64,000 bases of DNA from Candidatus Methylomirabilota bacterium (GTDB taxonomy: Bacteria > Methylomirabilota > Methylomirabilia > Methylomirabilales > Methylomirabilaceae), in NCBI GenBank assembly GCA_003104975.1, contig PQAM01000019.1:94001-158000 (forward strand), given 5' to 3'. Below the pieces are notes generated by a model. The model had not been told where the DNA came from. It worked only from the letters and a program-made list of their open reading frames with translations, and searched no databases. A program made the position numbers and the translations under genes. Shown piece after piece: positions 17,084-62,221 of the stretch (its first letter is position 1; every line of letters starts with the position of its first letter).

Positions 17084-17902
17084 ATGGATAAACTAAGCTT
17101 CGTGAAAATGAGCGGAAGCGGTAACGATTTTATCCTGATCGATAACCGCGCCGGTCATCTCGACATCGAGCCCAGGACGCTGGCTGAGCGACTCTGCCGA
17201 CGCCGGATCTCGGTAGGGGCTGACGGCCTGATCCTGGTCGAGCCCTCTTCGACGGCCGATTTCCGGATGCGGATCTTCAACGCCGACGGCAGTGAGGCGG
17301 AGATGTGCGGCAACGGCGGCCGTTGCGTGGCCAGGTTCGCCGAGATGTTGGGGATCGCGGCACCCGACATGGCCTTTGATACGCTGGCCGGGACGATCCG
17401 GGCGCGGGTGAACGGCGACCGGGTCACGTTGCAGATCAGCCGGCCACACGGGATGCGCCTGCGTCTATCGATTGACGTGGACGGCGTCTCGTACGAGATC
17501 CACAGCATCAATACAGGGGTGCCGCACGCCGTCCTCTTGTGTTCGGATCTGGAGGCCGTCCCGGTCCGCACGCTGGGGCGCGCCATCAGGTTTCACCCGG
17601 CCTTTCAACCGGCGGGGACGAACGTCGATTTTGTGGCCGTTGCTGACGGTCATGCGCTGGCTATCCGGACCTATGAACGGGGCGTCGAGGACGAGACGCT
17701 GGCCTGCGGCACAGGAACCGTCGCCTCAGCGCTGATCTCGGCCGAGTTGGGACTGGTGTCTTCCCCGGTCCAGGTGCAGGTCAGGAGCGGCGAGATCCTC
17801 ACTGTGTCGTTCACCGGACCGGACTATCAGGAGGTCTTTTTCGAGGGGGAGGTCCGACTGGTCTATCAGGGCGAGCTGATGGCCGACGCGTTCAAGGATT
17901 AG
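17084..17902 (+). CDS. dapF: Diaminopimelate epimerase
   Basis: Converts LL-DAP to meso-DAP using two active-site cysteines, both visible: C75 in MCGNGGRC and C208 in LACGTGT. The N-terminal FVKMSGSGNDFILID motif is typical. At 272 residues it is the normal two-lobed fold. ATG 17084 has TGAGG upstream. The stop TAG sits at the edge of a heptamer array, its AG being the first bases of the first AGTTTTC unit. It supplies meso-DAP both to LysA and to MurE encoded at 28882. Confidence 0.96.
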   Translation: MDKLSFVKMSGSGNDFILIDNRAGHLDIEPRTLAERLCRRRISVGADGLILVEPSSTADFRMRIFNADGSEAEMCGNGGRCVARFAEMLGIAAPDMAFDTLAGTIRARVNGDRVTLQISRPHGMRLRLSIDVDGVSYEIHSINTGVPHAVLLCSDLEAVPVRTLGRAIRFHPAFQPAGTNVDFVAVADGHALAIRTYERGVEDETLACGTGTVASALISAELGLVSSPVQVQVRSGEILTVSFTGPDYQEVFFEGEVRLVYQGELMADAFKD

Positions 17903-17968
17903 TTTTCAGTTTTAAGTTTTTAGTCTCCAGTTGTTTACTCAAAACTAAAAACTGACAACTCGAAACTG
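17901..17968 (+). repeat. Heptamer array AGTTTTN with inverted AAAACTN arm
   Basis: Units AGTTTTC, AGTTTTA, AGTTTTT, AGTCTCC and AGTTGTT (17901-17935) are followed by AAAACTA, AAAACTG, ACAACTC and GAAACTG (17941-17968). The arms are complementary (AGTTTTTAG with CTAAAAACT), giving a hairpin in the dapF-dapA spacer. Confidence 0.8.
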
Positions 17969-17985
17969 CACTGACGGGAGATCGC

Positions 17986-18870: not shown

Positions 18871-18875
18871 GCGTT

Positions 18876-18907
18876 CCTTCAGCCTTCAGCCTTCAGCCTT
18901 CAGCCTT
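18876..18907 (+). repeat. Heptamer array (CCTTCAG)4
   Basis: Four perfect tandem CCTTCAG units plus a partial CCTT fill the dapA-dapB spacer. This is the cleanest example of the 7-base period in the window. Confidence 0.9.
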
Positions 18908-18922
18908 ATTCGGTGGCCTTCG

Positions 18923-21913: not shown

Positions 21914-21941
21914 TCCCTACACCCTACACCCTAGCCCGTAG
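21914..21941 (+). repeat. Heptamer array (ACCCTAC-type)
   Basis: Units TCCCTAC, ACCCTAC, ACCCTAG and CCCGTAG fill the dapL-folK spacer and end at the folK start region. They are the complement of the GGGTGTA-type arrays in the mur cluster. Confidence 0.75.
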
Positions 21942-23129: not shown

Positions 23130-23156
23130 GAATCGAGCGTGGCTACAAGGCGTTTA

Positions 23157-23284
23157 AGCTGTAGACTGAAGACTGAAGGCTCTTAATTATCTCGCAAGGC
23201 ACGAATCAAGCCATTCAGACCTTTTCGGAGTTTTGTATGACCACGTGTGACTTACCCCTGCAAGCCTTCAGCCTCCAGCCTAAC
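23157..23284 (+). repeat. Inverted heptamer arms (GAAGACT / AGCCTTC)
   Basis: The left arm has GTAGACT, GAAGACT and GAAGGCT (23161-23181). The right arm has AGCCTTC, AGCCTCC and AGCCTAA (about 23263-23283). The arms are complementary and flank an ~80-base AT-richer centre with no gene, so the whole dNK-panB spacer could fold. Confidence 0.65.
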
Positions 23285-23307
23285 TACCTGAGTAGTGACG
23301 ATCGATC

Positions 23308-28904: not shown

Positions 28905-30387
28905 CGGCATCGACTGCCGGGTCCTCCGAGGGCCTATTGATGTAGAGATACGACAGATCCGGTACGATTCCAGACAGGTGGAGCCCGGCGATCTGTTCGT
29001 CTGTATCAGCGGTTTCAGGCGGGACGGTCATGACTTCATGCCGGCCGCCTGGGCGGCCGGCGCCGCGGCGATCCTGGTGGAGCGCCACGATCTGCCGGAG
29101 GCGGCGCTCTGTGGCGGGACGGTGGTCAAGGTGGCGAACGCTCGACAGGGCCTGGCCGTCGCCGCCTGTCGATTCTACGGTCATCCCTCGCGTACACTTA
29201 CCATGATCGGCGTCACCGGCACCAACGGTAAGACCACGACCACCTACCTCGTCGAATCGGTTCTGCGCCGCGCAGGTCATCAGGTCGGATTGATCGGTAC
29301 CATCGGGTACCGTTACAACGACGTGGTGATGGAGGCGGCCAGAACGACACCCGAATCCAGCGATCTGCAGGCGCTTCTCCAACGGATGGTGCATCTGGGC
29401 GCCGACCGCGTGGTCATGGAGGTCTCATCCCACGCCTTGGCGCTCCACCGTGTTGATGGTTGCGAGTTCGACGTGGCGGTGTTTACGAACCTGACGCAGG
29501 ATCATCTCGATTTTCACGGTACCATGGAGGCATACCGGAACGCCAAGCTGTCTCTCTTTGAGGGGTTGGGTGTCGGATCGACAAAAACGGCGGAGAAGGC
29601 GGCGGTGGTCAATCTTGACGATCCAGCCGCGGACCTCTTTCTCCGGGCGACACGGGCCCGACGCCTGACCTACAGCGTCGAGCGATCGGCCGATCTGTCG
29701 GCCACCGATATCGACATGGGGCCGGACGGCATCCGGTGTCGACTGCAGACACCGTGGGGCGCCACAGAGGTCTGCTCGCCGCTGCTTGGACGCTATAACC
29801 TGTCCAATATTCTGGCGGCTGCGGCCACCGGCCTGCATTTGGGTGCGGATCTCTCGACGATGGCGGACGGGATCGCCGCACTCCGCCATGTCCCGGGTCG
29901 GTGTGAACGGGTCGAGGCCGGACAGGCGTTCAGCGTTATGGTCGATTACGCGCATACCCCTGACGCGCTGCGACGTGTCCTCCGCATGGCACGGCAATGC
30001 TGTCCGGGACGCCTGATCGTTCTATTCGGGTGTGGTGGTGAACGGGATCGGGGGAAGCGGCCGCTCATGGGAGCGGCGGCGCTGGAACTGGCCGATTTTA
30101 CGGTCATCACCTCCGATAATCCCCGCGGCGAGGACCCTCATCAGATCATCGACGAGGTCGAGAGTGGGGCCAAAAAGGTGTGGGGTCAGGGTAAGGGCTA
30201 TGTTACAATTTTAGATCGAGGGATGGCCATTCGTGAGGCCCTCTCGCTGGCGGGTCGCGGCGACATGGTGGTGATCGCGGGGAAGGGCCACGAGACATAC
30301 CAGATTCTTCACGATCGGACGATCCCGTTTGATGACCGACTGGTGGCTCAAGAGGCGCTCCACGAATTAGGGTTTTCCGGAGAGTAA
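28882..30387 (+). CDS. murE: UDP-MurNAc-L-Ala-D-Glu:meso-DAP ligase
   Basis: Adds meso-DAP to the peptidoglycan precursor. Mur ligase with P-loop GVTGTNGKTTTT near residues 110-121, TPESSDLQ, a carbamylated-Lys region and the specificity motif DNPRGEDP (D412 onward), whose Arg marks meso-DAP rather than lysine enzymes. This agrees with the complete DAP pathway upstream. 501 residues. It starts inside the ftsI 3' end. The downstream spacer is an inverted heptamer array. Confidence 0.96.
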   Translation: MRLFDLIDGIDCRVLRGPIDVEIRQIRYDSRQVEPGDLFVCISGFRRDGHDFMPAAWAAGAAAILVERHDLPEAALCGGTVVKVANARQGLAVAACRFYGHPSRTLTMIGVTGTNGKTTTTYLVESVLRRAGHQVGLIGTIGYRYNDVVMEAARTTPESSDLQALLQRMVHLGADRVVMEVSSHALALHRVDGCEFDVAVFTNLTQDHLDFHGTMEAYRNAKLSLFEGLGVGSTKTAEKAAVVNLDDPAADLFLRATRARRLTYSVERSADLSATDIDMGPDGIRCRLQTPWGATEVCSPLLGRYNLSNILAAAATGLHLGADLSTMADGIAALRHVPGRCERVEAGQAFSVMVDYAHTPDALRRVLRMARQCCPGRLIVLFGCGGERDRGKRPLMGAAALELADFTVITSDNPRGEDPHQIIDEVESGAKKVWGQGKGYVTILDRGMAIREALSLAGRGDMVVIAGKGHETYQILHDRTIPFDDRLVAQEALHELGFSGE

Positions 30388-30390
30388 AAA

Positions 30391-30470
30391 GGGTAGAGGG
30401 TGTAGCGTGGAGGGTATAGAAAAAAAACAGCAGCACCATCTCCTACCCCCTACCCCCTACCCCCCATACC
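30391..30470 (+). repeat. Inverted heptamer array GGGTAGA ... (CTACCCC)3
   Basis: The left arm GGGTAGA, GGGTGTA, GCGTGGA, GGGTATA (30391-30418) is followed by an A-run. The right arm is three perfect CTACCCC units plus CCATACC (30443-30470). The arms are complementary and fill the whole murE-hydrolase spacer; as RNA this would form a strong stem. Confidence 0.85.
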
Positions 30471-30488
30471 CTGTTCTGTGGTGCTGGC

Positions 30489-32935: not shown

Positions 32936-32940
32936 AGACA

Positions 32941-32961
32941 GGGTATAGGGTGTTGGGTGTA
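32941..32961 (+). repeat. Heptamer array (GGGTNTA)3
   Basis: GGGTATA, GGGTGTT and GGGTGTA in tandem fill most of the 36-base spacer between the MurF-like gene and ddl. Confidence 0.8.
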
Positions 32962-34288: not shown

Positions 34289-34299
34289 AGTAGAAGATA

Positions 34300-34361
34300 G
34301 GGTGTTGGGTGTGGGGTGTTGAGGGAAAGGATTACGCGTAAGGTGGAGGGTGTAGGGTAAG
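34300..34361 (+). repeat. Two heptamer arrays (GGGTGTN) before mraY
   Basis: GGGTGTT, GGGTGTG, GGGTGTT (34300-34320) and, after ~20 bases, AGGTGGA, GGGTGTA, GGGTAAG (34341-34361). Together they fill nearly the entire ddl-mraY spacer, the second ending 6 bases before the mraY ATG. Confidence 0.8.
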
Positions 34362-61010: not shown

Positions 61011-62221
61011 ACGCAGTGTCGAGCGTTGAGTGTCGAGTGTCGAGTTCAGACTCTTCTCCTTACTCCTCACGCCTTACCCCTTACGCCCAACCCCTCGGTG
61101 TATACATCCACATTCCCTATTGCCTGTCACGCTGTCATTACTGCGACTTCAACAGCTATCGCATTGATACCGGTCAGATTACACAATATCTGGAGACGCT
61201 GGCGCGAGAGATCGCATCGAGGGCGTGCGCAGAAGCGGTCCGAGACCGGCGCGTCTGTTCCGTCTTCTTCGGCGGCGGGACGCCTTCGATACTCCAGGCG
61301 TCGCAACTGGTCGGCATCCTCGATCATTGCCGGGCGACCTTTACCGTCGAGGACGATGCAGAGGTCAGCCTCGAGGTCAATCCTGGGACGGTCGACCTGC
61401 CGAAACTCTGTGCGTTGCGAGAGGGCGGGGTGACCCGCCTGAGCGCAGGGGTGCAAGCGGTTCAGGACCGACTCCTCCAACGAATCGGACGCGCCCATAC
61501 GGCCTGGGAGGCCGAACGAGCCTTTTGGTCGATGCGGGAGGCCGGCTTCGATAATATCAATCTGGACCTGATGTTCGGCCTGCCCGATCAGAGTACGGAC
61601 GACTGGTCGGAGACCCTTGACTGGGCGATCGGCGCAGGTCCTGAGCACATCTCTGCCTACGGGCTGATTCTCGAGGACGGGACGCCGCTCCAGCTTGAGT
61701 CGTCCAGGGGCGACATTGGGCTCCCCGACGAAGAGACGGAGGCGGCGATGTACCGTTTAGCTGTCGACCGGTTGCGCGAGGCCGGCTTTGAGCAGTACGA
61801 AATTTCCAACTTCGCGCGTCAAGGCTTTCAATGTCGGCATAATCTGGTCTACTGGCAACACCAGGAGTACCTCGGCCTGGGGGCGGGGGCCCACTCATTC
61901 CTCGCCGGACGTCGGTACTACAATGAATCACTGCCCGCACGCTACGTCTGCGCGATGGCCGAGCGAGGGGCCGCCGTAGCCGGCGGCGAAGTGCTGTCTG
62001 TCGAGATGGTGCGATCCGAGCGTCTGATGTTGGGACTGCGGCTTCGGTCCGGATTGGACGTGCAGGCGTTCACGGACCTCCTGGGTATTCAAGACCTTGC
62101 GGCGTCTGATCGGGTCGCTCGCTTTCTGGACGATGGGTTTCTTCGCGTACGGGAAGGGCGGGTACAGATCACAGAGCGTGGGCTTCTCGTAGCCAACGAA
62201 CTGGTTGTCCAACTTCTCTGA
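61007..62221 (+). CDS. hemW: HemW-family radical SAM protein with repeat-encoded N-terminus
   Basis: HemW (formerly annotated as anaerobic coproporphyrinogen oxidase) is a heme-binding radical SAM protein linked to heme insertion. The [4Fe-4S] motif is C39LSRC43HYC46 in YIHIPYCLSRCHYCDF. Later FFGGGTPSILQ, SLEVNPGTVDLPKL, LSAGVQAVQDRLLQRIGR and NINLDLMFGLPDQS are typical, and the C-terminal HemN domain is complete. 404 residues. The first ~28 residues ([20 protein letters not shown] and following) are written by an 11-unit heptamer array; homologues begin at about GVYIHIPYC. No in-frame start codon exists between the array and YIHIPYC. Confidence 0.94.
   Translation: MNAVSSVECRVSSSDSSPYSSRLTPYAQPLGVYIHIPYCLSRCHYCDFNSYRIDTGQITQYLETLAREIASRACAEAVRDRRVCSVFFGGGTPSILQASQLVGILDHCRATFTVEDDAEVSLEVNPGTVDLPKLCALREGGVTRLSAGVQAVQDRLLQRIGRAHTAWEAERAFWSMREAGFDNINLDLMFGLPDQSTDDWSETLDWAIGAGPEHISAYGLILEDGTPLQLESSRGDIGLPDEETEAAMYRLAVDRLREAGFEQYEISNFARQGFQCRHNLVYWQHQEYLGLGAGAHSFLAGRRYYNESLPARYVCAMAERGAAVAGGEVLSVEMVRSERLMLGLRLRSGLDVQAFTDLLGIQDLAASDRVARFLDDGFLRVREGRVQITERGLLVANELVVQLL
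61016..61092 (+). repeat. 11-unit heptamer array inside the hemW 5' end
   Basis: GTGTCGA, GCGTTGA, GTGTCGA, GTGTCGA, GTTCAGA, then CTCTTCT, CCTTACT, CCTCACG, CCTTACC, CCTTACG, CCCAACC. A strict 7-base period holds throughout while the unit family changes once. It is translated as HemW residues ~4-28. Confidence 0.85.

Follow-up and report, generated by a model that had tools for sequence, protein, structure and literature searches.

Heptamer arrays with coupled convergent arms and changing unit words at shared sites in Candidatus Methylomirabilis

Introduction

For decades heptamer repeats have been noted in bacteria here and there, and there is still no consensus on their mechanism. In Xanthomonas and Nostoc the G-rich units GGGAATC and GGGGA(C/T)T recur with a period of 7, mostly in intergenic regions between aligned ORFs and with the 5' side of the G strand near the ORF; they form 70-75 convergent inverted pairs per genome, and the variability of the units is patterned, sparing positions 1-4 and 6 (Rehm et al. 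2015, PMC4692102). The marine Beggiatoaceae carry direct repeats of a single word, TAACTGA, chiefly a short distance before start codons; there is a single indirect repeat, and related heptamers are rare (MacGregor 2015, PMC4679880). The sections of Schoelmerich et al. (2023, PMC9879509) drawn on here describe the tandem repeats of Borgs as fast-evolving and as located both in intergenic regions and in ORFs.

The window analysed here is a stretch of 64,000 nucleotides (C19:94001-158000) of the 3.0-Mb genome of a methane-oxidising Candidatus Methylomirabilis (NC10), referred to as G000, which is 99.99% complete. It was compared with a set of 13 to 15 related genomes, most of which are MAGs and one of which, G006, is a one-contig genome. 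The survey of arrays covered stretches that add up to 977 kb for G000 and to 420 kb for G006. Gene positions are those of a simple codon-model caller rather than of an annotation; dapF and dapA were assigned by TIGR00652 and TIGR00674.

Results

An initial annotation of the window, made from the sequence alone, described three spacers in which the left heptamer array is the complement of the right one. The sequences and coordinates were verified, and all three spacers (in the setting of dap and mur operons) contain complementary arms of period 7, given here on the plus strand. In the dapF/dapA spacer a left G/T-type arm of AGTTTTC/AGTTTTA units (17901-17924), the start of which lies in the dapF stop codon, is complementary to a right C/A-type arm (17937-17960); in an ungapped Watson-Crick stem over 17901-17960, 21 of 24 positions are paired around a loop of 12. 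The murE/hydrolase spacer has a left G-type arm of AGGGTGT-like units (30387-30419) and a right C-type arm of CTACCCC units (30443-30475), with 24 of 33 positions paired and a loop of 23. In the spacer between a dTMP-kinase-like gene and panB the left arm consists of AGACTGA units (23162-23181) and the right arm of CCTTCAG units (23263-23282), pairing at 17 of 20 positions across a loop of 81. The three spacers are not a single kind of thing. The arrays at 17901-17968 and 30391-30470 are members of a genome-wide class of bipartite heptamer arrays; that at 23161-23283 is not an independent example, because it is part of a dispersed element. The window also contains single arrays at 18873-18911 (C-type, (CCTTCAG)4, in the dapA/dapB spacer), 21915-21937 and 32938-32960 (G-type, between murF and ddl), together with a G-type array in the ddl/mraY spacer (34297-34323), which in congeners is present, bipartite or absent. 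One bipartite pair (61015-61087), with AGTGTCG units on the left and CCTTACG-type units on the right, has the same polarity and unrelated arms (arm complementarity 0.16).

The dispersed element (23139-23299, plus strand) qualifies as MITE-like on its terminal inverted repeats, target duplication, multiple copies and empty sites. Its terminal repeats are diverged (GTGGCTAC..GTAGTGAC) and its flanks, AATCGAGC/GATCGATC, are a decayed 8-bp target duplication. Matches to 23130-23307 number 67 in G009, 24 in G004, 19 in G010 and 11 in G006; the aligned copies end in the terminal repeats GTAACTACTCAGG..CCTGAGTAGTTAC, have target duplications of 8 bp (GGAATAGC, GCAGTGTG, TAATGCAG and CTTGACGC), and differ from one another in the left arm by whole heptamers, for instance by a single one. 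The panB site is empty, with no insert, in G010 and G004. The terminal GTAA and the 8-bp duplication presumably recall IS66-type ends. A search for an autonomous parent found none, a 743-bp stretch flanked by inverted copies of the terminal repeat gave no transposase match in Pfam, and a plasmid search using the element gave no match. With orthologous spacers placed side by side, neither terminal inverted repeats nor a target duplication were visible at 17903-17985 or 30388-30488.

Among 695 spacers, 75 stems scored at least 14, compared with none in dinucleotide shuffles. Ten stems in these spacers have a period of 7 in both arms (period identity of at least 60%), while none has a period of 3-6 or 8-12. 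Among tandem periods, 7 and its multiple 14 alone were enriched over 603 kb of the genome, and a sensitive scan found 195 arms in 977 kb versus 31 in 989 kb of block-shuffled sequence. More than 25 consensus words occur in G000 and G006, several of which do not form G runs (for example AGTTTTC). An AG anchor in one orientation is common to 85 of 106 strict arrays (z 5.5 versus letter shuffles), and within arrays deviations are about fourfold commoner at positions 6-7 than at positions 1-5. Units taken from different sites resemble each other more if they come from one genome than if they come from two (9.0 versus 7.6).

The arrays have a marked orientation. Neighbouring arms are arranged as G-type then C-type in 41 cases and as C-type then G-type in 4. 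Of 92 arms, counted with those of single-arm spacers, 69 have the 5' side of the G strand nearer the ORF; for single-arm spacers alone the figure is 31 of 44. Arms are almost restricted to codirectional spacers and in-frame sites in ORFs: 102 were found in 91.1 kb of codirectional spacers versus 2 in 20.2 kb of divergent spacers, the densities being 1.12, 0.40 and 0.10 per kb for codirectional, convergent and divergent spacers, respectively. All but one of 36 heptamer hairpins are in codirectional spacers. The numbers of arrays on the sense and antisense strands are about equal (31 versus 36).

Arms at the same site pair better with each other than with arms of other sites in the same genome (z 4.6 in G000 and z 3.4 in G006). 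When nine orthologous sites were pooled, pairing within species (769) exceeded that between species (602; z 6.7, P 0.0002); individually, P was below 0.05 for dapF/dapA, murE, mraY/murD, hisF, prmC and carA and not for ddl/mraY, queA and tsaD. Only about 6 of 41 pairs have unrelated arms, and complementarity is retained in most relatives that have both arms, so that neither of the two refuting outcomes named in the initial annotation was observed. The arms are thus coupled beyond chance and two wholly independent slippage events are insufficient, as the initial annotation had argued. Its proposal that the arms arose by inversion or duplication through a hairpin intermediate is not supported as a general origin: shuffling the order of the units in one arm did not lower pairing (mean 14.5 versus 14.3 observed), so the coupling is at the level of the unit word and not that of an exact inverted copy. 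A literal inverted duplication was rejected on this null mirror-order result. Near-exact palindromes, such as that at G000:C9 39902-39965, are only occasional.

Comparison of orthologous sites revealed turnover of both arms and words. The dapF/dapA arms are built of AGTTTTC, AGTGTTG or AGGTGCG in three species and are mostly complementary within each. The murE spacer occurs in a two-armed form, in a one-armed form (right arm only in G010, left arm only in G009) and without an array (G005, G001 and G012). Heptamer arrays of other words are also found in the murE region of families f2 and f3 of the order. G014 and G008, whose genomes are almost identical, are set apart at mraY/murD by exactly one heptamer, which belongs to a single arm. 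Eight genomes have a dapA/dapB spacer of 52 bp, in which most congeners carry CCTTCAG units; G005 and G014 have CCTACAC instead, length and flanks being unchanged. The murF/ddl array was gained in this species only; the 12 readable congeners have a 4 bp gene overlap. As at dapF/dapA, the units at hisF, queA, tsaD, prmC and carA differ across species at the same site.

These last sites lie inside genes. In-frame inserts in hisF, queA, tsaD, prmC, cca and carA occupy positions shared by most genomes read, with differing words. In queA the A and the G are each invariant in 32 of 32 cells (four units in eight species), whereas the other five unit positions have column identities of 0.31-0.63. In the eight species with carA inserts of equal length, a G is invariant in the left units (40 of 40 cells) and a C nearly so in the right units (31 of 32). 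The carA insert also occurs, with yet other words, in other families of the order; in family f3 its arms are reversed in polarity and lack the AG anchor, which rules out a universal AG rule, and in family f7, of the wider class, no array is present at the site, which measures 39 bp. The loop between the carA arms encodes QLKLF, QLSLF, QLNLF, QLDLF or QMDLF across the order, a peptide that is conserved while the flanking arms vary and that we take to resemble the beta-clamp-binding consensus QL[SD]LF.

If a stem in the transcript were under selection, G.U mismatches would be tolerated and A.C mismatches would not. The opposite was observed: in the sense strands of 75 stems there are 117 A.C and 55 G.U mismatches (p 2.6e-6). 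Stems from related species do not count as independent in this total; locus by locus, A.C is in the majority at 35 and G.U at 10. Compared with shuffles, the three spacers show no gain in folding as sense RNAs (z -1.1, -1.0 and -0.3) but a gain as antisense strands (z -2.1, -2.9 and -4.6). No terminator-like site (a stable sense stem followed by a T run) was found in the three spacers, nor was any match to Rfam covariance models. The mismatch and folding data argue against a stem in the mRNA, and the A.C excess hints that such stems are selected against. An antisense or DNA hairpin may be compatible with both sets of data.

Discussion

The geometry of the arrays, the coupling of their arms, their turnover, their changes in length by 7 nt, their in-frame copies in ORFs and the MITE-like element are demonstrated here. 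The account that we favour, with modest confidence, is a strand-polarised slippage and rewriting of repeats at the level of DNA. Short heptamer arrays would arise at, or be acquired by, a site and would then lengthen and shorten in whole 7-nt steps, presumably by replication slippage. They would be re-worded again and again with a new unit, either through mutation and homogenisation or through rewriting, with position and often length staying fixed. The G-type strand runs 5' to 3' into the site, starting on the side of the flanking ORF, and because of this a two-armed site reads as G-type then C-type and is foldable. The likeness of the arms would reflect a shared local template from which both are as a rule written or corrected, perhaps through snap-back copying or arm-to-arm conversion in single-stranded DNA, and they may diverge later by drift. 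The element at 23139-23299 is MITE-like and bears such arms within its ends.

Plain slippage does not explain the one or two invariant bases per heptamer, the roughly fourfold greater variation at positions 6-7 than at positions 1-5 or the near-absence of arms from divergent spacers, and these features suggest a constraint or a dedicated activity. Nor are the AG anchor and the period of 7 itself explained by a process acting on DNA. In addition, the A.C excess is asymmetric with respect to transcription, which is unexpected for a purely DNA process unless structure in the mRNA is counter-selected.

A dedicated activity of this kind, possible in our view although doubtful, would be a polymerase, a reverse transcriptase (RT) or recombination that extends 3' ends or fills gaps with AG-anchored heptamers and so repeatedly exchanges entire arrays at fixed positions, both in spacers and, in frame, within conserved genes; only the AG (or CT) anchor of each unit, the 7-nt period, the convergent orientation and, in many cases, the length would be retained. 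The polarity of the arms fits extension of G-type 3' ends from both sides of a gap, and the invariant bases of queA and carA and the greater likeness of units within than between genomes point the same way. Against this, a candidate gene was not found. Ku is absent from all 15 genomes, which rules out end joining through Ku; no match to RAYT (PF01797, Y1_Tnp) was found in G000; and RT is patchy (8 of 15 genomes), with no match in G014, G007 and G001, in which some sites nevertheless carry arrays, so that none of the three is obligatory. The reversed, anchorless carA arms of family f3 make the grammar less than universal, and stepwise point mutation with homogenisation could yield identical changes of word. 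The initial annotation had offered, as its second possibility, selection for a foldable RNA in the operon transcript, acting as an mRNA stabiliser or as a site of processing or attenuation. This is contradicted by the mismatch and folding data and we consider it improbable: the concentration of hairpins in codirectional spacers and the co-variation of the arms between species are in its favour, but the near-equal numbers of sense and antisense arrays, the one-armed and armless murE sites and the absence of terminator-like sites and Rfam matches are not. It is very unlikely that decayed MITEs or other transposable elements account for every bipartite array. Such an origin holds for 23139-23299, whereas no terminal repeats external to the arms were seen in the other two spacers or at the ORF sites, and the units at orthologous sites vary by species with no single consensus. 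Chance or an assembly artefact is scarcely credible even with most congeners being MAGs, given the contrast with the shuffles, the sharing of sites among 13-15 genomes, the one-contig genome included, and the shortness of the arrays, which fit inside single reads.

The 13 to 15 related genomes capture shared sites as empty, one-armed, two-armed and re-worded. With the same sites at different stages, the origin of the 7-nt period, of the convergent polarity and of the arm coupling becomes directly testable. The arrays also offer a route by which the conserved enzymes HisF, QueA, TsaD, PrmC, Cca and CarA acquire ever-changing in-frame inserts.

The inverted arrangement is not new, since convergent heptamer pairs with the same placement were reported in Xanthomonas (Rehm et al. 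2015, PMC4692102). What looks new is the retention of arrays at fixed sites from one species to the next, with the unit word exchanged and one or two bases per heptamer left invariant. A limited search of the literature found no report of the many-word, re-worded, in-gene form across a genus or of arms borne by a MITE. As in Xanthomonas and Nostoc, a unit of exactly 7 nt is over-represented relative to other lengths and the pairs are convergent with the G strand directed into the spacer. Each of those genomes, however, has one G-rich word (GGGAATC or GGGGAYT), in place of the many found here, and in Methylomirabilis, unlike in them, the arms change together, in-frame copies at fixed sites in ORFs are re-worded and arms occur inside a MITE. 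Intergenic heptamer arrays scattered over the genome are common to Methylomirabilis and to the Beggiatoaceae with TAACTGA. REP/BIME sequences with their RAYT are likewise intergenic palindromes in many copies; unlike them, the Methylomirabilis arrays have period-7 arms of changing words and the genome has no RAYT match. Like a MITE, the element at 23139-23299 is non-coding, has terminal repeats and target duplications of 8 bp, and occurs in many copies in relatives; it differs from MITEs in the length-variable heptamer arms immediately internal to its ends. Borg repeats, as far as the cited sections describe them, resemble these arrays in their fast evolution and in their placement in both intergenic regions and ORFs; they differ in belonging to archaeal extrachromosomal elements and in being direct and A-enriched, and those sections mention neither inverted arms nor a fixed period of 7.
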